64,000 nt of DNA, from the NCBI GenBank assembly GCA_963575745.1, contig CAUYUJ010018319.1, positions 134,501 to 198,500 on the forward strand, written 5' to 3'. Each line of letters begins with the position of its first letter. Positions within the stretch are counted from its first letter, which is position 1. This stretch comes from Prorocentrum cordatum. Its lineage: Eukaryota; Sar; Dinophyceae; Prorocentrales; Prorocentraceae. The position numbers and the translations under genes are program-made. Shown in pieces: positions 36,330 to 52,866 of this stretch. The notes under the pieces are model-generated. The model was not told where the DNA came from. It saw only the letters and a list, made by a program, of their open reading frames with translations, and made no database searches.

Positions 36330-36595
36330 ACTTTAAGGGTAGCTCTTTGGGAGATGTTATATAGAATCGGGAGTATAGCTCGCGCGCCGTTGCCTTTGGC
36401 TCAAGGCACGCGCGCCCTATTTGCCCGGACGCCGCGAGTGTTCGCTATGTGCTGGAAAGATCATTACATCGATCTCATCCTATCTTATCCGTCCGTTCTT
36501 CTTACTGAACAACCTCAGTACGATACCGGACGCTATTTGCCATCCGCTTCCCATGGAGTCGGATGCTAATTGACTTACCATAGTCACTTTCGACT
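36330..36595 (+). repeat. Copia-1 5' LTR
   Basis: 266 bp, paired with 52160-52425. It contains an imperfect hairpin GCGCGCCGTTGCCTT...AAGGCACGCGCGC at about 36383-36413 and a TGTTATATA element at 36355. Promoter and R region are expected here; I cannot place the transcription start. Confidence 0.9.
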
Positions 36596-36613
36596 TGGTA
36601 GCGGAGCTGGCCG
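36596..36613 (+). other. Copia-1 primer-binding site
   Basis: TGGTAGCGGAGCTGGCCG begins at the base after the LTR. TGG matches the CCA tail of a tRNA, and TGGTAGCGGAGC resembles the TGGTATCAGAGC-type sites used with initiator tRNA-Met. It confirms the LTR edge. The exact tRNA cannot be named without the host tRNA set. Confidence 0.65.
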
Positions 36614-36809
36614 CACTCTCGTGTGGTCAGCTCTTGCTCTTCCTATCCTCGCGCTACACGGCACGATGTTCGTGACCAACTACCACCCTGCGCCGCCACT
36701 CCCAGTACATTTACGAGGATCTATCCAAGAGCAAGAAGCAACGCGAGAGGTACGACGTCTAGACAACAACATTGGTACCATATACGCTTCATCACTGCGC
36801 TACTACTAG

Positions 36810-38087
36810 CCGCTCGGCAACGAGCCAAAAGCGCAGTACTTGAAGCAGAGGCGGGGGGACCCGCGAGATAAAGCGCCTCGGAGACTTGACAAGGCGCTAC
36901 CCCAGCGCGGCAACGCGCCTAATCACCACCCATATCTTCACAGCCTGGGGCTGGTTATATTCGCCATCATATGGTTCGCGCTGGGGGCAGCAATCGGACA
37001 CATGCGTCGTGGAGAGAACAGCACCGATGGGCAAACACATGGCCCATGCTGGGACCCTCAAGGCAACGTGCCTTTCCGCGAGTACGTTTATGAGGTCAAC
37101 GCGTGGCCCAACGTCACAAGCGGACGCATGACGCCACAGGCCCAAGCGGCCGCCATGCAACGCGGCCTGGGTGGCCTAGCGAGGACACTCGCCATGAGGG
37201 TACCACCTGACATTATAAACTATGGTGCTGACATCGATGGGGTCCACACCGACCCAGTGACCTACATCATGTTCCTCCTAAGCATGAAGTTCGAGCGCCT
37301 GGAAGATGAGCGCCAGCTCACTTCCGGCACGCAGCTCATCGACTTTCATGTGCCTCGCGGAGAACGAACCGATGTCACCCTTACCCGATTCGAAATGGCC
37401 CGACTTGAGGCACAGTCGGTGGGATTTGACCTTCCCAACTTCCAACTACTAACTACGATCCTATTCCGCGCCTTAGGCGTCGGCAACCAGCGAGCCATGC
37501 AACTCTTACAGCCACTCAATCACCAAATGCCCCGAACACAACAACAGTATGATGAGTTGCTGGAAAGGATGCGTTCGATAGGTCACTTATCGGAACGGTC
37601 TCCTGGCAATGTAGGATCCGTGTTTGGAAGGGGAAGAGGATCTGGTAGCGGGAATTTCTACACTACCTTAACCGCTGAAGCCCAGCCTGGAAACGGGCCC
37701 TCAAGCGCGTGGGCCGACGATCCTGGAGAATCCACTGCTCTACTAGCAGGGGATCGATCACAACCAAGCTGGGCAACCAGCCCTCCTTCCAGAGAACCTC
37801 AACCACACCGTTCCCTATGGGGTGAATCAAACCCCCTAACCGACGGTGTATCCACCTGCCTGGGAGACGACGATTTCGACTCCGGCACCGACACAGATAC
37901 CGTATCATCAGACGGTGTTGAAGCTTTAGATTGGTCAGATATCATGAATATGGAAAATGATAACCAGCGTGCTGAACACTTGTTTTGGTTACTGCAACAG
38001 GCAAAACGGAGGTGGGGGAGGTTCGCGCGAAAACCAGTGCGTCGTGTTAGGAGGAGGATGCGGAGGAGTTTCAAAGGAAAAGGGTAA
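36810..38087 (+). CDS. Copia-1 gag (capsid)
   Basis: Open from the codon after TAG 36807-36809. No ATG lies at the front; the first clear in-frame ATG is at about 37002, so the start is uncertain. A hydrophobic stretch LGLVIFAIIWFALGAAIGH (about 36946-37003) is unusual for gag. The region 37190-37600 (DPVTYIMFLLSMKFERLEDE, FDLPNFQLLTTILFRALGVG) looks like a helical capsid core. The end is basic (RKPVRRVRRRMRRSFKGKG), then TAA. The downstream frame restarts with a similar Lys/Gly-rich tract, so a frameshift at GGAAAAGGG (about 38077) joins gag to the next ORF. Confidence 0.6.
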   Translation, partial: PLGNEPKAQYLKQRRGDPRDKAPRRLDKALPQRGNAPNHHPYLHSLGLVIFAIIWFALGAAIGHMRRGENSTDGQTHGPCWDPQGNVPFREYVYEVNAWPNVTSGRMTPQAQAAAMQRGLGGLARTLAMRVPPDIINYGADIDGVHTDPVTYIMFLLSMKFERLEDERQLTSGTQLIDFHVPRGERTDVTLTRFEMARLEAQSVGFDLPNFQLLTTILFRALGVGNQRAMQLLQPLNHQMPRTQQQYDELLERMRSIGHLSERSPGNVGSVFGRGRGSGSGNFYTTLTAEAQPGNGPSSAWADDPGESTALLAGDRSQPSWATSPPSREPQPHRSLWGESNPLTDGVSTCLGDDDFDSGTDTDTVSSDGVEALDWSDIMNMENDNQRAEHLFWLLQQAKRRWGRFARKPVRRVRRRMRRSFKGKG

Positions 38088-40512
38088 AGGTAAACGGGGT
38101 CGGCGTAGGTTGAATGGACGAGGCATCGCGGCCTTCCTCCAGAAGCTCTCAGATGATCAGTATGATGAGATATTCTTCGGAGGAAAAGGCCGCGGCAAAG
38201 GCCGTGGAGATACCTCGGGCAAAGGCAGAGGTAGGCGGGGAAACCCGCGAGGTAGAGACGGCCAGATCCTAAAGTGCCATGAGTGTGATAGTACCGACCA
38301 TCTTGTGAGAGATTGTCCAGCGAAGGGAAATGGAAAGGGCAGATCGACCGAAGTCCATTTTGGCTCAAGTGAACAATTTATTGAATATCTGAGCCTCCAG
38401 GATTTTGAGGCCATGGAACAGATATTTTACACTTGGGTTAGCTGCATGGGCAACGTCGACGAGCTCGAGGCGTATGGCCATGGACTGTACGCGTACTACA
38501 TCGAGTACGTCCGCAGGTTCGTTGTCGGCAACAACGAGCTCGCTCCCGTGGATCAAGGAACGCTGGGAAACCAGTCTTTATCTTTCTTCGACTGGATGTT
38601 CGGGAACCCAGGCGACATCATGGCCTACGAGAGCAGTGACGAGGACGTCACTGCAGAGGCCTCGCCTTCAGAGGTTGATCGTGACCTCCAACCTCCACCC
38701 GACCTCATGCCTGGAAACAGGCCTACCTATCCTCGAAATCACGCTGAACTAATAGAAATGGAGTCTCAAGCGTTCGTTGCGGGCGTACCAGGGGGCCCAT
38801 TTATATCCCCTGGTTCGCTTGCTCCAGGCGAGTACGGACCCCGCGCACTACTGCAAACCCTCATGAGGATGCACGAGATATTAACCATAGCATATCCCGA
38901 GAGTCAACAAAGCATCGAAGCTGGTAACATGATGCTGCAGGACACTGACGCCTGCGACGACTCGGAGTTAGTGTTGGTAGCCTTGACTCTTATCGACAGC
39001 GTGCACCCTGAGGACGTGCAGAGGCATGTGTGGTACTCCCGAGGGAGATGGCGCGAGGCCCTTGAAAGGGCCATCGCCATGCGCGGCCAGGCTCTTCCTC
39101 CGCCAGGATGGGGTCTCCAGGCGGCGGGACTATGGCCCAATCATACTGCCATGCGCAACATTGCTGGGCAGCCTGTGCTCGGCAACGAGCCTGAGCCGAC
39201 AACCGTGCCGCCTACTCCGGGACAGCCAAGCGATGCTCAGACGCCGGCTACGCAGGGAAACCTGCCCGTCCCGGCTGCACCGATGGCCGTCATCATTGGC
39301 AATTCTACATCAGAAGATGAAGAGGGTGATGGTTGCGGGCTGTGCGAGGACGAAACCACAATCCTCATGATGGAGGTCACTGGTGAGGAAGAGGTGGACT
39401 TCGATCCCGACGAGCCTGGCGCGCCAACACCACCGGCACAAGCGCCAATTGCGCCGGGCTCCAGCCAGCAGGGAAACCTGCCTCTGTTAGACGATCCACC
39501 TGGGATCGCGCAGGAGCCTCCGCAGGAGCCCCCGCCGGCTCCCGCTCAGGCTGCATCGGCAGCCTTTTCTGATGAGCATGCCGGAAGGTCTCGTTCCCAT
39601 CCACGCCTCAGAGAAGAGCCCCATCCGCAGGCGCGGCTTCCTCGTGAGTGGAGGCAAGCTGGCCCAAAGGAACACGCTCTTAGGCGAGGGGGCGACTTGC
39701 TTCCTTATAATGACCCAAGGCGTCGGAAAGGGGAACATTCGGCCTTCGGCAAGGGCAACCCCGCCTATAGAGACGCTCAGGGAAAGTCCATGCGCGGTGG
39801 CTACCAGCTTGCGACGAACATTCGTACTGGTGAGATACAAGAAGTACGAACGCAGCTGCGTAACGTCATCGCAGCGCGCAAACTGTGCCGACCTCATGCA
39901 GTTTGTGGACCATGCTCAGAGCCGTTTCAGGAGCATAGGCCGGGTTGCCCTGTAGGGCTCAACGAGGGTTTGAGCCCGAACAGAGGCCGTACTCCTCATA
40001 AGGAGGGTCATCCACCGCTGATCCCGATGACTCAAGACGAGATCGCAGAGATTAATCGTCGTCTCGGGATCACGGTTCATATGAGGCCGACGGCCGAGGA
40101 GGTTAAGCATCCTCCGGCTCCGAGGGGACTGGTGCCCATGACCCAGGAAGAAAAGGATGCGCTCTTTAACCTTCCTGGAATGCGAGGAAACTCGCCCGGC
40201 GTTTCCAGCCAGTCCCAACGGCCAGAACCGACGGGCAACGATGACCAGAAGGCCCGGCGAGTTGCGGCAGATGAGGAACGTAGACGGACAGCAGAGAAAC
40301 GCACCCGCGAGGCAACTCGCCAGATGCTGATGGACCCCCAAAAGATCTACATGAAAGAGGCGAGGGCGAAGAAGCCCCCGCTTCCACTCCAACCGAAGGC
40401 TAAGAGTGAAACGCCGGCCCCTAGGTCGCTTTCGGAGGAGAGACCGAAGACGACAGCGCGCTCTGAGGAGCTTGGGTCAGATGTGCAGATGGAGGTGCCC
40501 CGCTCTATCTAA
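37957..40512 (+). CDS. Copia-1 nucleocapsid and long disordered region
   Basis: Real coding probably begins at about 38080 with a Gly/Lys/Arg-rich stretch. The zinc knuckle CHECDSTDHLVRDC (CX2CX4HX4C, 38275-38316) follows. The remainder is Pro/Glu/Gln-rich and largely disordered, with nine micro-hairpins read as GNxP motifs. A conserved-looking helical segment is at about 38760-39170 (AYPESQQSIEAGNMML, VHPEDVQRHVWYSRGRWREA). Position 38355-38369 equals the last 15 nt of DinoSL and is read as HFGSS. The knuckle implies binding of element RNA. Confidence 0.7.
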   Translation: MITSVLNTCFGYCNRQNGGGGGSRENQCVVLGGGCGGVSKEKGKGKRGRRRLNGRGIAAFLQKLSDDQYDEIFFGGKGRGKGRGDTSGKGRGRRGNPRGRDGQILKCHECDSTDHLVRDCPAKGNGKGRSTEVHFGSSEQFIEYLSLQDFEAMEQIFYTWVSCMGNVDELEAYGHGLYAYYIEYVRRFVVGNNELAPVDQGTLGNQSLSFFDWMFGNPGDIMAYESSDEDVTAEASPSEVDRDLQPPPDLMPGNRPTYPRNHAELIEMESQAFVAGVPGGPFISPGSLAPGEYGPRALLQTLMRMHEILTIAYPESQQSIEAGNMMLQDTDACDDSELVLVALTLIDSVHPEDVQRHVWYSRGRWREALERAIAMRGQALPPPGWGLQAAGLWPNHTAMRNIAGQPVLGNEPEPTTVPPTPGQPSDAQTPATQGNLPVPAAPMAVIIGNSTSEDEEGDGCGLCEDETTILMMEVTGEEEVDFDPDEPGAPTPPAQAPIAPGSSQQGNLPLLDDPPGIAQEPPQEPPPAPAQAASAAFSDEHAGRSRSHPRLREEPHPQARLPREWRQAGPKEHALRRGGDLLPYNDPRRRKGEHSAFGKGNPAYRDAQGKSMRGGYQLATNIRTGEIQEVRTQLRNVIAARKLCRPHAVCGPCSEPFQEHRPGCPVGLNEGLSPNRGRTPHKEGHPPLIPMTQDEIAEINRRLGITVHMRPTAEEVKHPPAPRGLVPMTQEEKDALFNLPGMRGNSPGVSSQSQRPEPTGNDDQKARRVAADEERRRTAEKRTREATRQMLMDPQKIYMKEARAKKPPLPLQPKAKSETPAPRSLSEERPKTTARSEELGSDVQMEVPRSI
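38355..38369 (+). other. 15-nt match to the 3' part of DinoSL
   Basis: CCATTTTGGCTCAAG is identical to DinoSL positions 8-22. That is exactly the piece left when a genomic DinoSL copy is trans-spliced again at its internal TAG. Here it lies inside an open frame just after the zinc knuckle. It could be a relict leader or chance. Confidence 0.4.
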
Positions 40513-40681
40513 AACCCCGAGGTCACCGACTAGAGCATTTCCAGCACAAAGACCCAACCCCTGACAGCCACCTCAGGAACCTGTAGAAGTACGTAGACGT
40601 CCGCCTAGTCGCAGCGGGTCTATCGCCAACAAGGCTAAGGCTTTCGAGCGCACAGGGTGCGCCCCTACGCCAGCCTCGCCT

Positions 40682-41835
40682 GTGGCGACGCGCTCCAAAA
40701 GGTCCGATGAAGGTGCCCTGTCTAGGGGCACCTGGGTGCCGACAATTAGGGGCAGCGCCAGCCGAGAATCACCGCGGGGAAACCCGCCAGGCGCTGCTGC
40801 TGCAGCTCCCTCCTCCTCGGGAGCCGCAGCCTCTTCGGCGACCGAGGCTCCTGTGCGGGGAAACCCGCCCGAGGAACAGCTGCGCCACCCAGAAGACACA
40901 TCCTTCACCGGTGGGAGTCAGACCGCGATCAGGGATAGACTTGCCCTGCGGAAGCTCCCACCGATACGTTCGGTGGATGAGGAATTCATGAGGAAGTGCA
41001 GGCGAGAAACTATTATCCCGAGCAAGAATCACACCCTCAAGCAACTGAGTAAGGCTCTCAGTAGGGTGTGTAGACACGCGCCTGACAAACCACACAATGC
41101 CGTATGGAGCCTGAACACCTTCGACGATCATGATGGCTGGATTTACCTCGTAAGCTCGTCCATGAGTATCCGTGGCACCACGGACATACGAGACATGATG
41201 GTTACAATCCCAGGCATGACGAGGCCAAAGTCATCGCCGCGAACCTATACGGCCGAACGGTGGACCAGCTGGCCGCCATCATGATGGAGGTGGTCCATGT
41301 CCGCGAACCAGACGGTGAAGAGAAACAACGCCTTCAGTCTAAGGTGTTAGTGCGGGACTCTGGCAAGTCCGACATCTTCATCCGGGCCTCTCAAGAGCAC
41401 TCGTGGACGCTGAAGGCTCCATGGTCGTTGTACAAGTACATCGTACTACACGACAACCCTGCTGGGAAACTGGCCCCATGCCCCGAGGTTGCCATGCATG
41501 GTGCTCGATGGACTGCCTTTGAAGGTACTATGTGGTATGGCCTTTCTTGTCGTTCCGAACACAACTCGAAGAAAAAGGGGACAGGCCGGTCACGCATCCA
41601 CTTTGCGCCGACGGTCCGCCGTCGCAGTGTGAACAGTGGGTGGGGCCCAGATTCCAACATCATCATCTTTGTGGACTGGCGTAAGGCCTTGAAGGATGGA
41701 ATAAAATTTTGTTGGTCTGACAACGGAGTCCTCTATCCGAAAGGACGGTATCATCGAACCGTACTACATTTCCCACGTGGAGGACCTTACCACGGGGAAG
41801 CAATGGCGCAACCCAGAGTATCTGGGATATCGTGA
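40682..41835 (+). CDS. Copia-1 Tpt1/KptA-like RNA 2'-phosphotransferase domain
   Basis: Tpt1 removes a 2'-phosphate from spliced RNA using NAD+. The domain spans about 40988-41835 over two overlapping frames (40682-41284 and 41260-41835, shift near 41250). Seen in order: LSKALSRVCRHAP (the SxxLSxxLRH motif with Arg-His, about 41044), FDDHDGWIYL (the dGY block), DIFIRASQEHSW (the IRAxQGHS motif, Arg and His kept, Gly to Glu, about 41372), MHGARWTAFEGTMWYGLSCR (the HGTxxxxWxxIxxxGL block, about 41494), GRSRIHFAP (the HIHFA block, about 41588) and FVDWRKALKDGIKFCWSDNG (the core strand and SxNGV, about 41668). Length of about 240 residues fits the family. Finding it inside a retrotransposon is odd. 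Micro-hairpin 41461 is inside the domain. Confidence 0.8.
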
Positions 41836-42215
41836 GGCACGCGTCTCCACCGCCATAATGTCGGCCCCTGGTAGGTGGACTGATGTAGGCAGTGCTAGTG
41901 TTAAGTACCAGTGGTCTCGCGACCAAGAGGGCGTCGACCCTCCTATGGTTTGCGGTCACAGAGAAGTTGGGGACCACTACAGCCCTGCCACGCTGGGAAA
42001 CCAGCCAGAAGTCCACCAGATCTTTATGATCACCGAGAGTGAGGCCGGAAGCGCGGCTCCAAGCCGCGCTCCAAGCCAAGGTCCTAGTGTCATATCTTGG
42101 CAGGCCATCAGCACCTCGGATCTGGACCAGATCGCGGCCGCTCTAAATCCTGAAAAAGTGGAGCAATTGGCGGATAGATTATCAGCAAGACCCCTGGGCC
42201 GCTGGCCAGGGAGCC

Positions 42216-43796
42216 ATGTCCGCCATGGTGACGCGTAATCGTCAGGCCATGCAGGGAAACCTGCCCATAAATGGATTCAGGAACGAGATGCCTGAGCCGC
42301 AGGGAGACCCGCAGACGTTCGGCCGCATTTTTGGAGGGCCTGCTCGATTCGAGCAGATGCATGGTAGCCCCTCGCATTGTATGCACACGCCGAGGGCCAT
42401 GACCCCAATGGCGACGCCACCTGCACAGTCTCCGTTCGGGACTCCTGGTCGCCCTGCCACGAGTGGCACCCTCATGGAGAGGATCGCAGCGGCCAGGGCC
42501 GAGCATGGTATAGCTCTCCTGAACATGATGCCGCCCGGCACTCCAACGAGTCAGCAGGGAAACCTGCCCGGCACTCCAAGCCATCATCGACTGTTTGCTG
42601 GACAAACCACAGTCGCTGGTGTGCCTGAAGACTACCGTGCAAGGGTGGCAGCTGCTGTGCAACAGGTGCAGAGTCACAACCTGCCTCGCCCGAGTGGTCA
42701 GAGGTGGAGGCCGGCCTGGTCCTGGGAGCCTGAGGGTCCCAATCCAAGGGATCCTGCTCGGCAACGAGCCTTCATCCCAGCCTTCAGTGCTCACCCGAGC
42801 ATGGCCCAGGGCCAGAGACCATCGCCAGCACGCATGAATCCGCCGCTGTACCCTGATGGGTCCAGAGTTCCGAACGAGTTTGTTCGCGAGATGGCGGATC
42901 AATTCCACGGCCTCACAAACGTGCGCTGTAGCGATCAGTCCATGTATCCGCACGTGGCCTTTATGCCTGCGCCGACGACGCCAGATGTGGCTGTCCAGCC
43001 TACTGCCCATTTGATATCGTCTGGCAGTAGAGGTGTGCCTGATTATATCAGGCAGACATGCCGCACCCAACAGGCGTGCTTCAGGCGCGGACAGGCCGTG
43101 CAGAACGTGCGTGATCAGTCACGTGCAGCCGCGCTTGAGGTTGCGAGGAACAGAGGCTCACCCATGCGAGGGAACTCGCCCGCTGCGACGCCTACAGCCT
43201 CCGCGTCAGCAGCTCCTCCAGTTGTGGCTGCCGTAGTGCCGGAGGTGCTAGATTCAGCAGGGGATCCCCCAGCGACCTTCATGCACTCCGAGACGGTCCT
43301 GGAGAGACAGCGGCGGGTATATCCCAGAGCAGCAGATGTGGAAGTTTTCACTGGGATGGAAGATACCTGCGCGGTATGCCTCGAGGAATTTCAGCCCAGG
43401 GAGAGTGTTTACCGTTTGAGGTGCAATCACTTATTCCATGAGGAGTGCTGGAATTCAAATGTGGTGGGCCACGTTGCAAATCAGCGCGAGGGAGACCCTC
43501 AGCAACCGCCGTGTGCTATCTGCCGAGCGCCTGGCATCATAGCGTCATCATTCCCATGGGCCCGCTCCTGCACTCAGGCTCCTGAGCAAGCAGCGAGGGA
43601 GCTGCGGGAGTTGAGGGGCATGGTGGAGGAGATGACAGCCAGGATGCTAGACAGGCAGACAGCTCAGCCCCAGCAGCAGGGAAACCTGCCGGAGGAGGTG
43701 AGGCCGCCGATGGAGACGGGATACTTCGATCAGCTTATCCCGATGACGGCGCCTCAGCAGGGAAACCTGCCTAACACCCCACAGGTGTCACCTTAA
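42216..43796 (+). CDS. Copia-1 ORF with RING-H2 finger
   Basis: A 526-residue frame from ATG 42216 to TAA. The first 370 residues are Pro/Gln/Ala-rich and disordered. The RING-H2 is at 43368-43523: CAVCLEEF, then RLRCNHLFHEECW (CxHxxHxxC), then PPCAIC. The zinc ligand order C3H2C3 is complete, with a longer than usual loop before the last CxxC. RING-H2 proteins usually act as E3 ubiquitin ligases by binding E2 enzymes. A short helical tail (PEQAARELRELRGMVEEMT) follows. Seven micro-hairpins lie within, one of them (42756) read as ARQRA instead of GNxP. The role in the element is unknown; altering host protein stability is a guess. Confidence 0.8.
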   Translation: MSAMVTRNRQAMQGNLPINGFRNEMPEPQGDPQTFGRIFGGPARFEQMHGSPSHCMHTPRAMTPMATPPAQSPFGTPGRPATSGTLMERIAAARAEHGIALLNMMPPGTPTSQQGNLPGTPSHHRLFAGQTTVAGVPEDYRARVAAAVQQVQSHNLPRPSGQRWRPAWSWEPEGPNPRDPARQRAFIPAFSAHPSMAQGQRPSPARMNPPLYPDGSRVPNEFVREMADQFHGLTNVRCSDQSMYPHVAFMPAPTTPDVAVQPTAHLISSGSRGVPDYIRQTCRTQQACFRRGQAVQNVRDQSRAAALEVARNRGSPMRGNSPAATPTASASAAPPVVAAVVPEVLDSAGDPPATFMHSETVLERQRRVYPRAADVEVFTGMEDTCAVCLEEFQPRESVYRLRCNHLFHEECWNSNVVGHVANQREGDPQQPPCAICRAPGIIASSFPWARSCTQAPEQAARELRELRGMVEEMTARMLDRQTAQPQQQGNLPEEVRPPMETGYFDQLIPMTAPQQGNLPNTPQVSP

Positions 43797-44875
43797 ATGT
43801 CTCCCCAGAGTGGGGGCGGGGCAGGGCTGGCACTGGGCCCTGAGCAGCTGCGTGAGTTGCGTGTTCGGCATTTCCAGACCCAAGTTGATAATGCGCACGC
43901 AACCTTTATGCTGGATGCCGAGAATCCTGAGACTGAGAGTGCGTCGTTGGACCTCTCAGATTCCTCAGTGGCAACAGCGGCAACAGCAGCCAGGGCCGTC
44001 GATTTCTCAGCTACGAACGAGGAGTTCGATGAGTGGTTGCAGTACAGGGATCACCTCACGAATGAGGGGTTGCAGGACATCGCCCTTCACTCGTATCTGA
44101 CGCTGACGAGACGCACCACCCGCGAGCAGTATAAGAGCATACGTGATGAGTATGCCAACTGGCGGGAGGAGCGTGACGCTCATGCTCAGAACGTGTCGTA
44201 CTTCCAGTGCATCGACCTGGCACGTGTGGCCGAAGGCAGGCCGGGTGCCAGCGTAGCGCGGGGAAACCCGCCAGGGAGTGCAACTGAATCGCGGGGAAAC
44301 CCGCCGGATGGCGCAGCTGGCACTTCAGAAACAGTGCACATCAAGCAGCCGAGTAAGACTTTCTTGGGCGATGGTGGAAACTCTATCCTCGTCGATGTAG
44401 GCTCGAAGATCAACATTACGGGAGAAAACACGAGCCGCAAGTTTGTCCAGGCTGCTGAGGCACACGGCCGTTCTTGTACGTTCGATCCCCGTTCTCGTTT
44501 GAACATCAACGGGGTGGCGAAGTGTCGGCCCCAGCGGATGCCGCAGGCACCTTCCGTATTGCCTGCGAGTGCCAGGGCTCGACCCAGGTCGATTCGTACA
44601 AGACGAACATTGTGTCAGGCTGTGGCAAAGACCTGCCAGCCATCCTAGGCCTCGATAGTATGCAGGACAAGCGCACTATTATTGTGCTCGAGCGAGGCCA
44701 GGAGAAGCTGATATTCCCTGGGAAGGGACAGGTCAAGATGGAGCTCCCCGAGGGCTCCAAGATCATGCCGACGACGAAGCTGCCATCAGGACATCTGTCG
44801 ATCAGGTGTGATCGATTTGGAGCTGCGGGCAACCCGCCTCGAGCTCAAGCAGCACGTCATTTCAGACGGTGCTGA
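43797..44875 (+). CDS. Copia-1 protease region (frameshifted)
   Basis: The frame 43797-44648 starts directly after the previous stop. It has a helical segment (FDEWLQYRDHLTNEGLQDIA), two adjacent GNPP hairpin motifs, then SILVDVGSKINITGENTS (about 44382), where DVGS is a plausible aspartic-protease active site of DxG type. Frame 44474-44875 continues with CGKDLPAILGLDSMQDKRT (about 44622), the ILG motif of retroviral-type proteases, and ends KMELPEGSKI...SGHLSIRCD. A shift near 44480-44520 separates the two. The protease would cut the polyprotein. Confidence 0.6.
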
Positions 44876-45722
44876 CGGGCGAGCCGACCCCGGCGCAGGA
44901 GCGCGAACAATGGCAGGGAAACCTGCCTCAGGGGTTGATGGAGACGCTCGCCAAAGCTATGGTGAGAGGCGATACATCGACGATCTTGAGACGTTCGATT
45001 GCTTCGTAGCCAGGACACTGGCCCAGCGTGGTGGAAGTGTACCCATGGACGCTGTACGGTCCCGCCGTAAGATAGTGATGGGGTACACGAACCGTGAGCT
45101 GCAGACAGTCAGTGACGCAAGGTCCAAGGGCGTGCTGAAGCAGCTGATGGATAATCCATCCATGCTGGCGGCATCTGCGGAGCAATCCGCCTCTGAGGCC
45201 ACGGCGCGCTGCAGTGCTGAGCTCCAGCATCTGAGGGAAGCCCAGATGCTGGCAGACATTGCAGGTACATCTTCTTTATCTTGAAGATGGCAGGGCGACG
45301 CTGCCCCCTCGTCGTCTTGCCTGATGGCCGGAAAGCCGGGGGGTAACAAGGACAGCGGGGCAACCTGCCTTAGCAAAAGAGCTTTTGTCATCGAAGATAC
45401 GAGAGAGGCTTGCGCCGACCTCCGCACCCGAGGTTATATCTGTGATCGTATTTCCCACAATGAGCTTATGACGACTGTGGGCGCAGATTACCTGGGTGCG
45501 GTGATCAGTGGAGATTACATTCTCATATGGATTAGTGCCCCGGGTGACTGGTATGTACGAACTCCAGGGAAGAGAGTGGCCCCACATTGGTCACGTATCC
45601 AACACCTTTTGATAAAAACCAGGAAGCCCCGTATGATAATCATAATATTTGGTCCCCCCCAGGATATGTTTGGAAGTTATCTCCAGTACGTGATACTCTG
45701 GAAGATCTTAAGTTGTCAGTAG
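44808..45722 (+). CDS. Copia-1 spacer ORFs of unknown function
   Basis: Two frames, 44808-45284 and 45324-45722. The first is helical with MGYTNRELQTVSDARSKGVL and ends at TGA. In the second, after AGKPGGNKDSG, comes CADLRTRGYICDRISHNELM and GDYILIWISAPGDWYVRTPG. I have the impression that this SHxELM and LWISxPxDW block is common in dinoflagellate Copia polyproteins, but I cannot name its function. Micro-hairpin 44913 is read here as AGKPA, in a different frame from the usual GNLP. Confidence 0.45.
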
Positions 45723-46951
45723 TACGGATGCGTTTGTGTCATTTCGGTATTCGGTTCAATATGCAAGACAGTACACCGAGTGGTACTTATATGCAGGTAG
45801 CTACATCAATACCGATTACCTCTAAGCTGTGGGCATGTACGTGCACATTGGCGATGCCACAACATGTGTTGGATTGGTACGGCCTAACGGTACGGCATGC
45901 TGAATGGCGAGCTCAGACACGTACCACACTCATCCGTCACCTGAACGACAAAATCCTGGGAAGCACCACCGCGCACGGAAACGTGCCTATATATTTGAAC
46001 ACCTATACACGTACGGACCACAACATCCATCACTACGTGACGACCAACAAGGGAGGACCGAAATGGTCTGATGTTACCCGACGTGTAACAATTAACCTGG
46101 ATACCAATGCGGTTATTCAGGATATCGCAGTAGCCGATCAACCAACAGGATCTGATTGGCATGCACCACTACCTGCAGGGGTTGCCAACATCAGCACACG
46201 GTTGTATTGGCAGCCCGAGGAACCGGTCTTGCTCGGAAACGAGCCTACTCAATCACCACAGAAACCTAGACGCGTCATCATAGATGACTGTCCTCTCCCC
46301 CCCCCGACTCTGGCGATTGACGCATGTGCCCACTCAACCACGACGATGGGCACGCAGGCCGGCGAACAAGACGAGCAAGTCTTACCTGCGGAATCGCGTA
46401 TCAAGCATAAGGGAAGGCTCAAAGCCGAAAAGGAAGCATGCATCAAGCCTCGCCGCATCAAAAAGCACGTTGAAGACGGAAACGACGATTGCGGCGACGA
46501 CTTGTCAGGACTCGGACAGGATCTTATGGCGACCTGGAGCGCTGACGTCCCTACTGAGCTGATAAGCTCCGATGAAGATGATGACCTGTTCCTTACCCTC
46601 CCCACATCTATGCCCGACGCGCGCGCTGACATACACAGCGTAGTCGCTACTCTATGCTATGGTCATAACAACTGCGTGGATATGTTGGAGCTTTGTGGCG
46701 GTGAGGGTGGCATTTCAGAGCTTGCCTTCTCAAGGGGACTCTCCTCAGGAGGCAACTTAGACAAGGCCACGTGTGTCGACCTGGGAGACCCCTCGGTGCA
46801 GCGGGCTGTAGATCACTACTTCGCAATATGCTACGTACGAGTTGCCATGCTACAACCCAGTTGCCGCGACACAGGACCACCATCCTACTACAACTACAAA
46901 GTCAATCGCAATACTTGGGAACAGCACCACAAAAAAAAATACCACACATAA
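45587..46951 (+). CDS. Copia-1 methyltransferase-like domain, N-terminal part
   Basis: After an unassigned block (MRLCHFGIRFNMQDSTPSG), a DWYGLTVRHAEWRAQTRT block and an acidic linker, the end of this frame has MLELCGGEGGISELAFSRGL (about 46681), which fits motif I (SAM binding, xxELxxGxGGxS) of C5-cytosine methyltransferases. CVDLGDPSVQRAVDHY (motif II region) and VAMLQPSCRDTG (about 46842, in the place of motif IV PPC, with Cys kept) follow. The frame ends after a run of nine A (46931-46939) and the domain continues in another frame. Cytosine methyltransferases have been reported in retrotransposons of Symbiodiniaceae. Confidence 0.5.
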   Translation: MVTYPTPFDKNQEAPYDNHNIWSPPGYVWKLSPVRDTLEDLKLSVVRMRLCHFGIRFNMQDSTPSGTYMQVATSIPITSKLWACTCTLAMPQHVLDWYGLTVRHAEWRAQTRTTLIRHLNDKILGSTTAHGNVPIYLNTYTRTDHNIHHYVTTNKGGPKWSDVTRRVTINLDTNAVIQDIAVADQPTGSDWHAPLPAGVANISTRLYWQPEEPVLLGNEPTQSPQKPRRVIIDDCPLPPPTLAIDACAHSTTTMGTQAGEQDEQVLPAESRIKHKGRLKAEKEACIKPRRIKKHVEDGNDDCGDDLSGLGQDLMATWSADVPTELISSDEDDDLFLTLPTSMPDARADIHSVVATLCYGHNNCVDMLELCGGEGGISELAFSRGLSSGGNLDKATCVDLGDPSVQRAVDHYFAICYVRVAMLQPSCRDTGPPSYYNYKVNRNTWEQHHKKKYHT

Positions 46952-48243
46952 CTTACTGTGGTAAAATTGCCGTTGCTCAAGATGATGCACGGAGGTGGTT
47001 TATGCGCGAACAACCCACAGGAACATGGGTGGATGACATTTCCCCATGGAAGGAACTTGCCAACCGACCACGCATCACAACCGTGCGCATTGATCAGTGC
47101 GCGACGGGACTCAAAGATACGGCTGGTGACTATATTAAGAAGCCGACAAATATCACCAGCAACGACGAGACGATTCTTAAACCTTTTGAGCGACTCAAAT
47201 GCAACGGTCAGCAGTTGCACGCACAACCGTGCAACAGAGAGCTTTCACTTGCACAAAAATACACTCGACGACTGCAGTCTGCCTTTGTGGAAGCCGTCTA
47301 TTTGGCGAAAGCAATTGACACTACGCGCGGAAACGCGTCTACACGTACCGCACATGCTTACCCTGCTGACCTTCCTGATCAAGCTGAACCGGGAGAAGGT
47401 ATGAGACGCGTCGGCGATCGTATCATCCCAAAAGTGGCTACATGCCCAGCATGCATCGACAATTTCCGAAAGGACAGTCCTAGCCACAACAGAGACCCTA
47501 CGCAGTGTAAGTATCATGATTATATCTCTGTTTATTGGCCATGTCCCGCATGCCAAAGGGATCTTACGAGAAGTGAAGGTGTTAAGAACCACCTCGATAC
47601 CGAACCTGGTAAATTTCGTTTTGCTGAACCGTTTAAACTTCCAGACGACCATGACCCCGAAGGTAAGACTGTGCCAGCTTGGTGGGAACCCTCACCCAAA
47701 CCTGGTGAGGGCCAAGCTTCAGCGTCAGGTGGCCGCCAAGGCGCACACGCCAGGCCACCGCGCCCACGATCCTTCGGGAACGCTGATCCGACATCTGGTG
47801 CCAGCAGTTACGACATTCTACGAGACGCCCCTGAGCGTGGAAACGCGCCTTCTGCGTCTTCTGGCGAACCGCCACAGGTAGCGGCCCGCCGTGGTCGCCT
47901 ACAAGGCGTACCACCACCACCAGATGCAGTTGACGAAGGAGACCGCCCGCGGAGAGCTACACGGAACCCTCTTGCCTCCACCGGCTCGGGGGCTCCACGA
48001 CTACCCGACTGGGCGAGATTTGATATCCAACGCAGTTTGCAAAATCTCCGTAGTCATGAACGTCATGTTGTTAAAAAGGAACTCCGTAAACTGCACCTAC
48101 GGTGGTATCATGCGAAGGAACCCAAGATGATGTTAATCCTAGACAAAGTGGGACTGGACAACGTTCGACTGAATATGATCAAAGAAGTTTGCGACACCTG
48201 TCGGGAATGCAGAGCATGGGGACGTCCAGGAAACTCAACATAA
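46940..48243 (+). CDS. Copia-1 methyltransferase C-terminal part and integrase zinc domain
   Basis: Continues after the A9 frameshift: ITYCGKIAVAQDDARRWFMR, EQPTGTWVDD (in the place of motif VI ENV), IDQCATGLKD, IKKPTNITSN. A Cys-rich block comes next (CPACIDNFRKD, CKYHDY, WPCPACQRDLTRSEGVKNH), which may be extra zinc fingers. A Pro-rich linker with hairpin 47835 leads to LHLRWYH (His 48094 and 48109) and CDTC (48190-48201), the HHCC domain of integrase. The frame stops at TAA 48241-48243; the integrase core resumes in the same phase. Confidence 0.55.
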
Positions 48244-49410
48244 CCTTCGGTGAGCCTTCCTGGAAATTGGCTCGATGAAGGCGAAATGGGTCTCATGTTG
48301 TACAAGAAACGAACCATATTCCACATTATGGATCGTTGTATTCGCCTGGCAGCAGGCCAAGAGATTTCCGACAGAGAACGTGGTGCTATACTCGACGCCT
48401 ACCACTACTGCTGGATTGCCTATCATAGACCCTTCAAAGTCTTGTACTCAGATGGGGAAGGCGCCCTGAACAATGATACCGCTAAGGCCATGATGGCGAA
48501 CAAGGGTACAACGCTCCGTATCCGAGCGCCTGGCCAACGCGCGACTTCAATCGAGTCGCGAAACGGTGTTCTCAGGGGCGTTCTCCACATGATTGAGGAA
48601 GAGCTGAACAGACACAACATCCTTGTTGTATTCACTAGAGTACTGGCTGAAGGCATCTTCGTCACCAGCGCCTTCACGTTTTACAACGGAGTATCGCCAT
48701 GCCAAGCGCACACTGGACGCCAGCCCTCCTTTCTTCCTGACCTCGACACCCTTGACTTTCCCAAGGGGCCCGAGACGTCAGGCCATGAACGAGAACGTCG
48801 TGTGAGGGAAGTTAGCCTAGAAGCAATAACTCAAGCCGCGGCTGTGGCCAAGACAAGTCGTGCTCTCAGGGCTAAAACGGCTCCAGATGGTGCTCGCCTT
48901 TACTCAGCAGGGGATCTGGTCGACTACCATCGACCCACTGCCACTAAGGGCGATCATGGAGGCTGGAACGGCCCATTCCCTGTGATCCGTAACGTGCCTG
49001 AAAGAGGACGCATCGTTGTCAAGGCAGGATCTCGTGAGGCAATTGGGATGTATCCTGATTCTCGTCACACGCTATACACTGAATGCCTCCTTGCACGGGA
49101 ACTTGGCATGGATAATATGGCCATGCAAACAGTTCTTACGTATGTGGCACACCTTGGTGCAGGGAAACCTGCCGAAGTCTTTGGCTACATCCCAGAGTAC
49201 AAGGGAAACCTCAATCTTTCAGACGACAGCAAGTTTCACCCGCGCGTACACCTTGCACTACAGTATCTCGTGCGAAATTATTTCCGAGTAGAACACGTAG
49301 TAGCAGTTAGACTGGCCAAAAGTGTGTCATGTCTACCTGCAGTAAAGTACGCCACTGGGTCTACGCTGATCCACTACGACAATGATGTTAGCCCAGCCTT
49401 CCACTTATGA
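48244..49410 (+). CDS. Copia-1 integrase catalytic core
   Basis: Same phase as the upstream frame, separated by one TAA. The catalytic triad is visible: Asp in FHIMDRC (48331), Asp in LYSDGEG (48451) and Glu in TSIESRNG (48553), the last two 34 codons apart, as expected for a DDE core. Downstream are FYNGVSPCQAHTGRQPSFLP (the sPyxxxxGrxP block of Copia integrases, about 48680) and GDLVDYHRP...GWNGPFPVI (about 48912), the C-terminal domain with W-GP. Integrates element cDNA in the nucleus. Hairpin 49159 is read as AGKPA. Confidence 0.8.
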   Translation, partial: PSVSLPGNWLDEGEMGLMLYKKRTIFHIMDRCIRLAAGQEISDRERGAILDAYHYCWIAYHRPFKVLYSDGEGALNNDTAKAMMANKGTTLRIRAPGQRATSIESRNGVLRGVLHMIEEELNRHNILVVFTRVLAEGIFVTSAFTFYNGVSPCQAHTGRQPSFLPDLDTLDFPKGPETSGHERERRVREVSLEAITQAAAVAKTSRALRAKTAPDGARLYSAGDLVDYHRPTATKGDHGGWNGPFPVIRNVPERGRIVVKAGSREAIGMYPDSRHTLYTECLLARELGMDNMAMQTVLTYVAHLGAGKPAEVFGYIPEYKGNLNLSDDSKFHPRVHLALQYLVRNYFRVEHVVAVRLAKSVSCLPAVKYATGSTLIHYDNDVSPAFHL

Positions 49411-49669
49411 GTGTGTGGGCACTGGCCTGAACTTTTCTCAAACCACTGGTAACACTCATTCCAGACTCATCCAATGCTTGACTTCACATGTTCCTTCCTT
49501 AGGATTTCACGACGACCTGGCCAAGTATCAGCACCCGGGCGCCACGTCTGGAGAACACGACTCGCCTGGAAACAGGCCTCCGCCAGACACCCCAGGTGCT
49601 TCATCGCCAAGTGAAGGCCGTCTGTCGACAATCTACGAAGTAACGAGGAACATAATATCGAAGCCATGA
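49382..49669 (+). CDS. Copia-1 linker between integrase and RT
   Basis: Overlaps the end of the integrase frame in another phase. Includes hairpin 49564, read as SPGNRPP, and ends VTRNIISKP. Probably disordered. Frame shifts near 49395 and 49665 flank it. Confidence 0.4.
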   Translation: MMLAQPSTYECVGTGLNFSQTTGNTHSRLIQCLTSHVPSLGFHDDLAKYQHPGATSGEHDSPGNRPPPDTPGASSPSEGRLSTIYEVTRNIISKP

Positions 49670-50544
49670 TGCTGGAAGAGTGGTACGATGAGTTACGTAT
49701 GGACCTTCATCCCACGACGACTACCGACGATTACCTCTACTGCGTCCCAACAACTATGCTGCCCGACCAATGTGTTTTGGTTTCAGCATCTGTGGACGAC
49801 GAAGATATCGTATTGTCGGAAACGCTTGGAGACGAGCCTGAACCACAAGAGCCCTGTCTAGTCTCTCTATGCTCAACCACACCTGACGAGGACTACTCTC
49901 TTGACAGTGATGAATATGGTCCCTATGTTGAGTTATGCTCTATATCAGAAATGTCAAAGGTAGTGTTGGATCAGACTCAACTTGCACAGCTCGACACTGA
50001 TATGGTCGCAACGATGCGAGTATATGTATCCTCTGCTGCTAAACGTGCTGTGGTAGTCAAGGAAGACGACCTACTCACCAAAGCCGACATAGCAGCACAC
50101 CCGAAAGAGGTTAGTGAAGCTTTGTGCACTGAACTCAAGATCTGGCTTGATAACCGGTGCTTTGAGATGTATGATTTATCCAAAGCTTCCAACATCATGA
50201 CCTCCAGATATGTATAAAAATGGAAGTTCGTGAAGGTAGGTACCGAGAACGTTAAAACCATCCGTCTCAGACTTGTCCTTCGTGGATTTATGGACACTGA
50301 GGCTTTCGATGTGGAAACCATCTCGGGAACCGCTCGAAGGCAGTCCCAGAGACTCCTAGCAAGTGAGGCGGCATGCCATCCAGAGTGGGTCTTAGCATCC
50401 ATGGATATCGACAAAGCATTCCTCAAGGGTTTGACCTATGAGGAACTTGCCCATGCCACCGGCGAGGAAACTCACATGGTTTGCTTCACTCTTCCACCGG
50501 GAAGTGCCCAGGTACTTCGTACACTGCCACTTTTCATCCTATGA
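49666..50544 (+). CDS. Copia-1 RT, N-terminal part
   Basis: One phase with a single TAA at 50215-50217. An acidic segment comes first, then AAKRAVVVKEDDLLTKADI and LCTELKIWLDNRCFEM (the region that begins Copia RT). After the stop come RLRLVLRGFMD, SGTARRQSQRLLASEA and ASMDIDKAFLKGLTYEELA with catalytic Asp 50404 (motif A), then LPPGSAQVLRTLP. The frame shifts near 50500-50540 into the next ORF. Confidence 0.75.
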
Positions 50545-51784
50545 CGAAAGCCGACATTGCCTCAGGTGCCTCAAGCCAGGAACGGGTACAAAGGACGCCC
50601 CCAGAGCGTTCTCTCTCAAGCTTCGTGCGACCACACGAGCTATAGGGCTTACGCCGACAAGTTATGACCCTGAATTTGAATTCAGCCAAGATTTGTTAAC
50701 GGCAAAACATGTCGATGACATTAATATGACAGGCCTAGAGAAAAATAAAGACGACTATATACAACGTGTCGAAAAGGTGTTTGGCAAATGCAAGCTTAAC
50801 AAACACTCATATACGAACTGCGCCGTTCGCTACACTAAGAATGACCAAGGGGATGTGATCATGGATCAGGACGAGTATATCAAACAACTACGTCCCATCA
50901 CGCACCCAGAACTTACAGGAGCGGCGGCCGATGCCAGAGCCACCAAACTCATCACCGACATGTTCGTCAGCTTGCGAGGAGCCCTCGCCTATGCCCTTCT
51001 TACTCAAGTCTGGCTCATGGTATATGTGGTCCCTCTTCAGAAAATCCAAGAGCCCGCCAACCTACAAGTCAGACGACTGAATGCTGTGGCGCGAAAGCTG
51101 ATCAGCAGCCCGAAACGCATCACCTTCCCTCGGATGAAGCCGACGAATGAAGTTGACATACACAGTGATTCGGGGTATCGTAAGCTCACCGGGGAGGAGG
51201 ACGATGAGACCAAGGGCTATGGCATACGCGGGGCCAACGTACTACGGCGAGGAAACTCGCCTCAAGGCAAATCCGTCGTCAACCTCTGTGACGGATTATG
51301 CAAATCACACCGGCTGCAGGTGAGGTCCAGCTATGCCGCTGAGGCACTTGCAGCTGCGCGCAACCTCGATTAGTGTTGCCCTACGCTCATCACTCTCCAC
51401 GAGCTCATGGCAGGGGCTCTGACTCCACGACAACTACGAGATATGCGTGAAGTTGGGGGCCTGGCTATTAAAGTACCCCTTACCATAGACGCAGCGTCGG
51501 TTTATACATCGCTGTCCAGCAAGGATCTTAAGATACCGACGGAACGGACCTTGCTTGGACATATTAGCTGGATACGTGGGCTCATGGATATAGGTATAGT
51601 GCATAATGTGCAGTGGTGTGATACTAGAGATATGACCGCAGATGGGCATACAAAGGGGAGCATCGATCGGGAGCTACTTTTGGAAGTGATGTCAGGCAAC
51701 CAGTCATTTAAGTATGACGTGAAGCAGTTTGTTCCCTTTCGGGGTCCTGAGGACAGAAACAAGCCTAAGTCTAATCAGTTATAG
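50438..51784 (+). CDS. Copia-1 RT C-terminal part and RNase H
   Basis: Continues with GTGTKDAPRAFSLKLR (about 50585) and AKHVDDINMTG (HVDD, motif C, Asp pair at 50714 and 50717). RNase H begins with VDIHSDSGYRK (Asp, about 51157) and has SSYAAEALAA (Glu, about 51328). After a single in-frame TAG (51371-51373) it ends with LTIDAASVYTSL, WCDTRDMTADGHTKG (final Asp residues, about 51617) and the stop at 51784. All catalytic residues I can place are present, so decay is limited to the stop and the upstream shift. Confidence 0.8.
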
Positions 51785-52159
51785 TCTGTCCTTGTTGCCC
51801 CCGCGGTCCAATTTGCCAGCATGGGCGCCTACTACAGAGGCGCCATTCTAGGTGCTCGGAAACGAGCCTTACATTTCACGCTTGGTAACGAGCCTGTTCA
51901 ATGCGATTCAGGCTCTTTGCCTTAATACCCGTTTGCTCGGTGAGGTATGGCCCGTTTGGCTTACCTCTAGCCGGGCCGATAGCCCTTTACCATTCAAGGG
52001 GTTGTCTCGTATTTGCGTGAAATGCCTTGCGAGGAAACTCGCCTTACAGTCTGGTGTTAAGCCAGTCTGTATGCATTGTTTTCTTGCAAACATTTGCGCG
52101 CGCGGCCTTTGTAGAGCCTAACGGCTGCGCGGCTATGCTCTCCGTCTCCTCCCCTCCCG
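51785..52159 (+). other. Copia-1 3' non-coding region
   Basis: Holds three micro-hairpins (51854, 51880, 52029) in non-coding sequence. The bases just before the 3' LTR are pyrimidine-rich (TCTCCGTCTCCTCCCCTCCC, about 52140-52158), where a purine-rich priming tract would be expected on this strand. Confidence 0.6.
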
Positions 52160-52425
52160 ACTTTAAGGGTAGCTCTTTGGGAGATGTTATATATACTCGG
52201 GAGTATAGCTCGCGCGCCGTTGCCTTTGGCTCAAGGCACGCGCGCCCTATTTGCCCGGACACCGCGAGTGTTCGCTATGTGCTGGAAAGATCATTACATC
52301 GATCTTATCCTATCTTATCCGTCCATTTCTCTTACTGAACAACCTCAGTACGATACCGGACGCTATTTGCCATCCGCTTCCCATGGAATCGGATTCTATT
52401 TGACCCACCATAGTCACTTTCGACT
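52160..52425 (+). repeat. Copia-1 3' LTR
   Basis: 266 bp, aligned without gaps to 36330-36595, with 12 substitutions. Followed at once by the target duplication GAGGA (52426-52430). Confidence 0.9.
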
Positions 52426-52866
52426 GAGGAGTTGCAGCGGCTTCGCCGCCGCGCCGTCCTTCACCGTGTGGGAGCTGATGGGAAGTCGGCGATCACGGGC
52501 TTGGTTGAGACCTTGTTTGGCCATTTCCCAGCAGGTTTCAAGTCGGCGAAGGCGGCCCAGTTCCAGTCGGTTGTGGACCTTCTGGGCGATCTGTCGGCGG
52601 CAGGGCTCCAATTCCAGCAGGAGGAGGAAACGCGCCAGAGACAGGAGGCCGAGGCGGCAGCCCAGCGGGCGGCTGCTGGCGGAGATGCATGTGATACTGG
52701 GGATACGTCGTCATCGGCGATCGACTCCAGGGTTGCCGAGGATTGCAAGCAGCAGCTCCGAGATCTCATGCAGGGTGGCAAAGCTGGGCAGTGTGAGGGC
52801 CTTTTCAAGACGATGCTGGAGTTCCTGGAGAAACCCCACGGCCCCCACCAAGCGCCCCAGGCGTGA
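52426..52866 (+). pseudogene. LINE-B ORF1, 3' part
   Basis: Resumes in frame after Copia-1 (LQRLRRRAVLHRVG). It has a helical region FGHFPAGFKSAKAAQFQSVV, a Gln/Glu/Ala coiled coil (LQFQQEEETRQRQEAEAAAQ) and ends CEGLFKTMLEFLEKPHG with TGA. Together with 35626-36329 it makes an ORF1 of about 380 residues. A G run of about 20 at 52978-52997 lies between ORF1 and ORF2. Confidence 0.6.

Follow-up and report, generated by a model that had tools for sequence, protein, structure and literature searches.

A sense-strand array of short hairpins along a dinoflagellate Copia-type retrotransposon points to an undescribed RNA signal

GNRA tetraloops are found among Gag-binding hairpins, and the known Gag-bound signals cluster toward the 5' end of the RNA. 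A hairpin of similar build, the lambda-type boxB of phage RNA, has a GNRA-like loop on a stem of 5 bp, binds a peptide, and occurs in one or two copies. Here, we analyzed a 64-kb stretch of Prorocentrum cordatum DNA (contig CAUYUJ010018319.1, positions 134,501 to 198,500 of the forward strand; hereafter the window) from a 4.13-Gb host assembly. It contains a 16.1-kb Copia-type long terminal repeat (LTR) retrotransposon at 36330-52425, larger than previously stated, which carries an array of hairpins in its sense direction. The 5-bp stem and GNRA-like loop recall boxB, from which the array differs in copy number and in lacking the pentaloop. This array points to an undescribed RNA signal needed by the element. 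All results refer to this single assembly and to the few element copies compared.

As far as the available parts of these reports go, the dispersed packaging signals of MS2, STNV, and picornaviruses (PMC6281560, PMC4836477, PMC3593212, and PMC7793301) likewise consist of many short stem-loops spread over the genomic RNA, coding regions included, with a common recognition motif, and they appear to be the closest analogue of the array. Two of their hallmarks recur here, namely, multiple similar stem-loops (in the DNA of the element) and conservation that is independent of the protein code. However, the host is an LTR retrotransposon, known from its DNA alone, and the motif is very uniform, with eight fixed positions and two free pairs, presumably more so than in the viral signals. 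The Gag-binding RNA elements of retroviruses and Ty1 (PMC8396678 and PMC7599994, in part) are also stem-loops on retroelement RNA, whereas the present array has approximately 40 copies over 15 kb, 3' end included. In the sections at hand, Rickettsia palindromic elements, REP (PMC3733652), and the coding palindromes of nematomorph mitochondria (PMC6649704) are similar in being short inverted repeats, partly coding and tolerated by the protein. In contrast to these, the hairpins described here are much shorter, sense-only, and observed here within a single retroelement clade, and their site-specific stems are mostly conserved in place. In the accessible part of the open-access literature, our search retrieved no such hairpins in dinoflagellates or retrotransposons, and the word hairpin is absent from the available portion of De Mendoza et al. 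(PMC5890265).

The original prediction described 38 copies of a micro-hairpin, all in the sense direction, none outside the element, and all with a GNRA loop. A scan of the whole window with GCNNGGNRACNNGC gave 44 sense matches, 37 of which lie within 36812-52042, and no antisense matches. All but one of these 37 are fully paired (42299 has an A-C mismatch), and two further sites, 38562 and 47325, deviate from the pattern in the final base alone (they end in GT), so that the predicted count was right within one or two. A relaxed pattern (loop GNNA, last base C or T) finds 40 sense and 0 antisense sites in the element. Contrary to the prediction, seven plus-strand matches lie outside the element; six are incompletely paired, and the remaining one, at 13082, is paired but includes a G-U pair. 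The loops are also not always GNRA and are better described as GNNA: GACA occurs at 37179 and 45009, and GCCA and GTCA prevail in the relative C1 introduced below. The loop at 48344 is GCAG. The element contains 14 distinct arm pairs (13 if the mismatched 42299 is excluded), with all four Watson-Crick types at both free inner pairs across sites. The base following the stem is C at 38/40 sites, regardless of frame.

The array far exceeds its null models. As predicted, it stands well above shuffled sequence: 300 dinucleotide shuffles between the LTRs contained 0.02 hairpins on average and never more than 1, compared to 36 observed. Synonymous-codon shuffling that kept the protein (500 times) averaged 1.82 and peaked at 6 versus 26 observed in ten window open reading frames (ORFs), leaving aside the gag frame and one other frame overlapped by longer frames, and a mean of 0.86 and a maximum of 3 versus 28 observed in three ORFs of C1. 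In addition, 5-bp Watson-Crick hairpins with loops of 3 to 9 nucleotides were counted in the ORFs and in 100 synonymous shuffles of them. The excess is greatest, by a wide margin, at loop length 4 (45 versus 15.5 expected in the window, 72 versus 25.6 in C1). Most of this excess consists of G..A tetraloops (24 versus 2.6 and 36 versus 2.1, respectively), chiefly on GC-started stems with a closing G-C pair (22 in the window, 24 in C1).

The hairpins show a frame bias. Read in the longest open frame, 30/40 window sites encode xGNxP, leaving 6 and 4 sites in the other two frames; the predicted xGNxP frame is thus common but not exclusive. In C1, 26/35 sites are in an AGxPA frame, and the base preceding the stem is A or T at 30/35. 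Three window sites (51854, 51880, and 52029) lie downstream of the final long frame in the reverse transcriptase region, which stops at 51781, and 36812 directly follows a stop codon at the element head. A Rfam covariance-model search of 36300-52500 gave no matches at an E value of ≤1. The strict GNRA pattern, the only one counted there, found no paired hairpins in 17 ten-kilobase stretches taken from a single contig in which some bases were masked; in this small sample the family looks element-specific. Pattern counts over the whole genome pool the copies inside and outside such elements.

Relatives in the same genome carry similar arrays. A DNA search found at least 39 sister copies at 92 to 96% identity, of which C636 and C16822 (L031+L032) were compared with the window copy. 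A family reached through the protein relative P0032, termed F, occupies at least 140 places. All comparisons with it use one copy (L035+L036), whose aligned blocks share 82 to 86% identity with the window element and which has 37 sense hairpins (36 with GNNA loops, one with GCAG; 11 left arms) and 0 antisense. More distant is C1 (contig C1, approximately 2045.4-2061.8 kb), about 67% identical in aligned blocks (64 to 69% in the long ones). Its family, reached through P0001, has at least 84 places, one of which (L033+L034, 95 to 97% identical to C1) was compared with it. C1 has 35 sense hairpins with GNNA loops and 0 antisense, which extends the predicted sense-only orientation to all three elements; the stem is GCGGG/CCCGC in 25/35, and the loops are mostly GCCA or GTCA. 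Genome-wide, the exact C1-type hairpin occurs 6,421 + 6,868 times, versus 182 + 191 for the reversed pattern, and five clusters among the 100 places listed (18, 19, 18, 20, and 19 sites) each keep to one strand. No relatives were confirmed among viral contigs and genome contigs.

The sites of the window element are given below, with their basis in brackets (scan, pattern match; sisters, comparison with C636 and C16822; F, comparison with family F; C1, comparison with C1).

36812-36825, + strand, GCTCG-GCAA-CGAGC, element head (scan, sisters, F)
36851-36864, + strand, GCGGG-GGGA-CCCGC; GCGGA-GAGA-TCCGC in the C16822 copy (scan, sisters)
36905-36918, + strand, GCGCG-GCAA-CGCGC; loop ACAA in F (scan, sisters, F)
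37179-37192, + strand, GCGAG-GACA-CTCGC, non-GNRA loop (F)
37685-37698, + strand, GCCTG-GAAA-CGGGC, G-U in every copy compared (scan, F)
37768-37781, + strand, GCTGG-GCAA-CCAGC, frame B (scan, F)
38235-38248, + strand, GCGGG-GAAA-CCCGC, RRGNPR, ahead of zinc knuckle (scan, C1, F)
38562-38575, + strand, GCTGG-GAAA-CCAGT; GCTTG/CGAGC in F (scan, F)
38709-38722, + strand, GCCTG-GAAA-CAGGC (scan, F)
39177-39190, + strand, GCTCG-GCAA-CGAGC (scan, F)
39252-39265, + strand, GCAGG-GAAA-CCTGC (scan, F)
39468-39481, + strand, GCAGG-GAAA-CCTGC; A-C mismatch in F (scan, F)
40182-40195, + strand, GCGAG-GAAA-CTCGC (scan, F)
40307-40320, + strand, GCGAG-GCAA-CTCGC, frame B (scan, F)
40774-40787, + strand, GCGGG-GAAA-CCCGC (scan, sisters)
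40855-40868, + strand, GCGGG-GAAA-CCCGC (scan, sisters)
41461-41474, + strand, GCTGG-GAAA-CTGGC, within Tpt1 region; GCCGG/CCGGC in sisters (scan, sisters)
41992-42005, + strand, GCTGG-GAAA-CCAGC (scan, F)
42251-42264, + strand, GCAGG-GAAA-CCTGC (scan, F)
42299-42312, + strand, degenerate hairpin GCAGG-GAGA-CCCGC, A-C mismatch (scan)
42554-42567, + strand, GCAGG-GAAA-CCTGC (scan, F)
42756-42769, + strand, GCTCG-GCAA-CGAGC, frame A (scan, F)
43166-43179, + strand, GCGAG-GGAA-CTCGC (scan, F)
43676-43689, + strand, GCAGG-GAAA-CCTGC (scan, F)
43757-43770, + strand, GCAGG-GAAA-CCTGC (scan, F)
44258-44271, + strand, GCGGG-GAAA-CCCGC (scan, F)
44291-44304, + strand, GCGGG-GAAA-CCCGC (scan, F)
44825-44837, + strand, broken site, one base shorter than both sisters and F (sisters, F)
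44913-44926, + strand, GCAGG-GAAA-CCTGC; aligned C1 site GCGGG-GCCA-CCCGC (C1, F)
45009-45022, + strand, GCCAG-GACA-CTGGC, non-GNRA loop (F)
45177-45190, + strand, variant hairpin GCGGA-GCAA-TCCGC (scan)
45355-45368, + strand, GCGGG-GCAA-CCTGC, G-U in every copy compared (scan, F)
45973-45986, + strand, GCACG-GAAA-CGTGC (scan, F)
46231-46244, + strand, GCTCG-GAAA-CGAGC (scan, F)
47325-47338, + strand, GCGCG-GAAA-CGCGT (scan, F)
47835-47848, + strand, GCGTG-GAAA-CGCGC; sisters and F end in CACGC (sisters, F)
48344-48357, + strand, GCCTG-GCAG-CAGGC, loop GCAG (F)
49159-49172, + strand, GCAGG-GAAA-CCTGC (AGKPA); C1 ortholog GCGGG/CCCGC (C1, F)
49564-49577, + strand, GCCTG-GAAA-CAGGC (scan, F)
49824-49837, + strand, GCTTG-GAGA-CGAGC; C1 ortholog GCGGG-GTCA-CCCGC (C1, F)
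50462-50475, + strand, decayed hairpin GCGAG-GAAA-CTCAC; CTCGC in both sisters and F (sisters, F)
51247-51260, + strand, GCGAG-GAAA-CTCGC near RNase H region; C1 ortholog GCGTG-GCCA-CACGC (C1, F)
51854-51867, + strand, GCTCG-GAAA-CGAGC, 3' untranslated (scan, F)
51880-51893, + strand, GCTTG-GTAA-CGAGC, 3' untranslated (scan, F)
52029-52042, + strand, GCGAG-GAAA-CTCGC, 3' untranslated (scan, F)

Stems evolve far more slowly than the sequence around them. Between F and C636, which are 15% apart, 9/390 stem positions differ in contrast to 722/4395 flank positions (P = 1.8e-18), a sevenfold lower divergence, and loops differ at 8/156 (P = 3.2e-5). The stems are identical at 32/39 comparable sites, and C636 holds a weakened pair at three of the other seven. 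The same holds for F against the window copy (stems, 9/380; flanks, 729/4271) and against C16822 (stems, 12/390; flanks, 742/4396), where the loops (17/156) are hardly below the flanks (P = 0.049). At four-fold degenerate third positions, F and C636 differ at 1/58 sites in stems and 455/1736 outside (P = 8.6e-7), and F and C16822 differ at 1/56 and 444/1724. Of the five reading frames taken from F in this test, one lies in element flank; with the window copy, which contributes no flank to the alignment, the figures are 2/54 and 460/1729. Similarly, C1 and the L033+L034 copy (3.8% apart) differ at 2/350 stem positions (P = 3.9e-4), 2/140 loop positions, and 140/3720 flank positions, and each of the two stem changes is an exchange of G-C and G-U. 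Their four-fold sites differ at 0/116 in hairpins and 185/2429 outside (P = 3.0e-4). Among the three sisters, private changes fall at 17/400 stem and 494/4649 flank positions; given the LTR divergences, much of this arose after insertion, and we therefore place the weight on F versus C636 and on C1 versus L033+L034. Since sites were chosen with at least one compared copy intact, these figures are slightly biased toward low stem divergence. The frozen silent sites indicate selection on the hairpin rather than on a GNxP peptide, and because window-family sites keep their own stems, mixing between sites does not explain the pattern.

The prediction that partner bases change together is borne out at orthologous sites. 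Both sides of the stem have changed between the window element and C1 at 49159, 49824, and 51247, as well as at 44913, where the alignment is less certain, and in part at 38235, where C1 holds a 4-bp version. Within the window clade, this applies to 36851 (GCGGG/CCCGC versus GCGGA/TCCGC) and 38562 (GCTGG/CCAGC versus GCTTG/CGAGC). Stems are all-Watson-Crick at 32/40 window sites and contain G-U pairs at the remaining 8/40. This is the predicted number, but at five of the eight (38562, 41461, 47325, 47835, and 49824) the altered base is private to the window copy among the three sisters and marks recent decay. G-U is present in all three sister copies at 37685 and 45355; at 51880, it occurs in the window copy and one sister, and the other sister is mismatched. 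As proof of RNA selection, G-U pairs were set aside because they mostly reflect the decay of an old copy, and divergence was used as evidence instead. Counting single stem transitions from Watson-Crick pairs across the three sisters, 10 led to G-U and 2 to A-C (P = 0.034 versus background).

Loop type varies with position and lineage. In C1, sites in the AGxPA frame have mostly GNYA loops, which encode Pro, Ser, Thr, or Ala, and sites near the element ends, outside that frame, read GCAA (7815), GAAA (23407), GCTA (23426), and AAAA (23374, where the sister has GAAA). From these small numbers, we infer that GNNA is the minimum and that GNRA is favored where the code permits. As a separate observation, the C16822 copy alone has six hairpins with A changed to G at the last loop base, where a background of 129/3786 predicts approximately 1.4 in 40. 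Loop editing was considered for this copy and rejected, as A-to-G changes over all loop positions are not raised (13/107 versus 323/3786; P = 0.22).

The best overall explanation, to which we give a probability of about 0.7, is that the genomic RNA of this clade carries a selected hairpin array. The selection that had been predicted acts, almost certainly, on a nucleic-acid hairpin, in view of the sense-only orientation, the excess of G..A loops, the low stem divergence, the frozen silent sites, and the both-sided changes. Sense RNA is very probably its working form. The 35 to 40 copies, each with a 5-bp stem (outer G-C and C-G, closing G-C, and two free inner pairs) and a GNNA tetraloop, mostly GNRA in the window lineage, would let a single RNA-binding protein dock repeatedly by recognizing shape, that is, the outer GC pairs, the closing G-C, and the G..A loop. 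This protein would most likely be the element's own Gag or nucleocapsid, and its binding along the whole RNA may mark and compact the genomic RNA for packaging into particles, in the way that dispersed packaging signals work in RNA viruses. Such docking accounts better than a local signal for an array that spans the whole RNA, both ends included. That the element's own protein packages or compacts the RNA is a tentative proposal, suggested by the need of a Copia-type cycle to recognize and pack a long RNA and by the zinc-knuckle Gag that the element encodes. It is conceivable, at somewhat less than even odds, that the entire genomic RNA is an array of about 40 shape-coded docking hairpins, an assembly code within protein-coding sequence in which frame is traded against loop type. 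The trade itself, GNxP with GNRA in one lineage and AG[PST]PA with GNYA in another, is a similarly speculative suggestion. If true, the element would have a cis-acting RNA architecture of a kind that our search did not find for LTR retrotransposons in the accessible part of the open-access literature. The array would also be the clearest case known to us of dozens of near-identical, individually conserved hairpins through retrotransposon coding sequence. With it, one could test directly whether packaging signals are dispersed in retroelements as they are in RNA viruses; the clade is abundant in the genome, and the reading-frame compromise could serve as a model for RNA signals evolving inside genes.

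Several observations weigh against this explanation. Loops of length 6 (23 versus 12.9) and 9 (28 versus 12.0) in the window ORFs, and of length 6 in C1 (26 versus 16.8), also exceed all 100 shuffles, each by a smaller margin than length 4. With ±100 nucleotides of context, the tested inner pair has a probability of >0.5 at 30/40 window sites and at just 17/35 C1 sites. Intact hairpins number 37 in C636 and 32 in C16822, compared to 40 in the window copy; F fails at 39468 (A-C mismatch) and 36905 (loop ACAA), and 51880 is broken in both C636 and F. The C1 family, with mainly GNYA loops and one stem, implies that recognition differs or is loose, and homogenizing conversion could contribute to the C1 figures. 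Finally, the excess of G-U over A-C is small, and in DNA, too, the milder mismatch is G-T.

That last point bears on a single-stranded DNA form (plus-strand cDNA) or a DNA binding site acting, for example, in strand transfer, nuclear import, or integration. The strand bias would be identical for plus-strand cDNA, which also counts against an RNA form, and G..A tetraloops are stable in DNA too. However, a double-stranded DNA site needs no pairing at free positions and would be expected in both orientations, and there are no antisense copies in the three elements; the preference for G-U over A-C argues weakly against either DNA form. We regard a DNA role of either kind as unlikely.

The original prediction also offered a mobile hairpin seed. 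In this alternative, a 14- to 15-nucleotide palindrome would copy itself within the element, and homogenization rather than selection would keep the copies alike. The C1 family gives this idea some substance: the hairpin at C1 16723 shares a tract of approximately 36 nucleotides with 13906 and is missing from the sister copy, and the C1 hairpin flanks form 16 pairs that agree at ≥17/30 bases, versus 1.23 expected. In addition, a 30-nucleotide hairpin unit has 2, 3, 3, and 4 copies on contigs C1, C2, C83, and C159, and a single stem accounts for 25/35 C1 hairpins. Separately, L010:7923-7966 holds tandem 15-nucleotide palindromes (GCGGA-TCCT/TCCC/TCTC-TCCGC) whose loops fall outside the hairpin family; the sister copy has one unit fewer. 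The window lineage, in contrast, shows 0 flank pairs at the same threshold versus 0.49 expected, and the clean 15-nucleotide in-frame insert that had been proposed was found at 0/39 comparable sites between C636 and F (clean 14- to 15-nucleotide presence or absence), with three further sites inside one 1502-nucleotide gap. Moreover, the 32/39 stems that are the same in C636 and F while differing between sites would have been erased by mixing. Hairpins were gained or lost without length change at 37179, C1 18659, and C1 22854 (DNA alignment) and at 50462 (protein alignment), and therefore through base changes; other differences in presence between the window element and C1 fall in poorly aligned linkers that do not permit a judgment. 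A seed as the general cause is quite unlikely. Under the docking explanation, base changes at places tolerated by the protein would supply some of the new hairpins, and small duplications and the copying of short tracts would add others in the C1 family.

A third alternative draws on the Tpt1/KptA domain encoded by both the window element and C1. Here the hairpins would serve as targets or holders while the RNA is broken and repaired; the loop would be cut and resealed with a 2'-phosphate, which the element's Tpt1/KptA removes so that reverse transcription passes. A 5-bp stem with a short loop would be a plausible ligase substrate. However, the F copy has its 37 hairpins and the 1502-nucleotide gap at the position of the window's Tpt1, and neither of two Tpt1 motif strings turned up when this copy was scanned. 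We consider break and repair very improbable. The peptide xGNxP (AG[PST]PA in C1), selected for instance as a processing site or linker with the hairpin as a codon by-product, has the frame bias in its favor but is ruled out as sole cause, and is hardly credible at all, given the sites in other frames and beyond the last one, the loss of the signal on synonymous shuffling, the frozen four-fold sites, and x residues that change along with pairing partners.

The remaining features of the element are as follows.

36330-36595, + strand, 5' LTR, 95% identical to 52160-52425
36596-36607, + strand, probable primer binding site TGGTAGCGGAGC, adjoining the 5' LTR
41317-41733, + strand, Tpt1/KptA RNA 2'-phosphotransferase domain, matching part (PF01885, E value of 2.7e-15; PDB 7yw3, E value of 1.8e-5)
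52160-52425, + strand, 3' LTR, 266 nucleotides, paired with the 5' LTR

The element is flanked on both sides by the 5-bp target duplication GAGGA; that of the C16822 copy is TTCAG. The window copy is old, because its LTRs differ at 12/266 positions and its reading frames are interrupted. We take TGGTAGCGGAGC to resemble an initiator-tRNA primer site. Just before the 3' LTR, 52140-52159 is C/T-rich on the sense strand and not a purine tract. The encoded zinc-knuckle Gag matches PF00098 weakly, under the curated cutoff. A Pfam search of the window's own reverse transcriptase and integrase ORF pieces gave no matches; PF07727 (Copia reverse transcriptase, RVT_2) is present in C1 (E value of 2.4e-11) and in several of the window element's 112 protein relatives, and the integrase is presumed from gene order and known motifs. 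The Tpt1/KptA domain recurs in C1 (L010, approximately 2658-3077; PF01885, E value of about 3e-15). No article linking Tpt1 with retrotransposons was found by title in the literature search.

At the RNase H site, 40 of the 113 protein relatives match the pattern, and T, A, or S comes next in 13/13 with N or H after RG versus 8/27 of the others, as pairing with the Arg CGN codon requires. Three public protein relatives (P0007, P0031, and P0011) have extra HGNV, RGNA, or similar repeats at or near this site, with codons that could pair. Several close relatives in EukProt, with up to 89% identity (P0004 and P0092 among them), carry the label Pyramimonas sp., which may reflect contamination or mislabeling. 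A protein search with 46705-48240 found a single relative.

A VDMLELCGGxGGIS stretch at approximately 46670-46950, conserved in C1, presumably resembles a methyltransferase cofactor motif; a Pfam search of this region returned nothing convincing. A RING finger (PF17123, PF13639) is encoded at approximately 43362-43526 and also in L010:3603-6809. What we take to be the dinoflagellate spliced leader occurs as an exact match at 35502-35522, just upstream of the element, and a leader-like TTTGGCTCAAG is present in both LTRs (36395-36405 and 52225-52235) and in the gag region (38359-38369).

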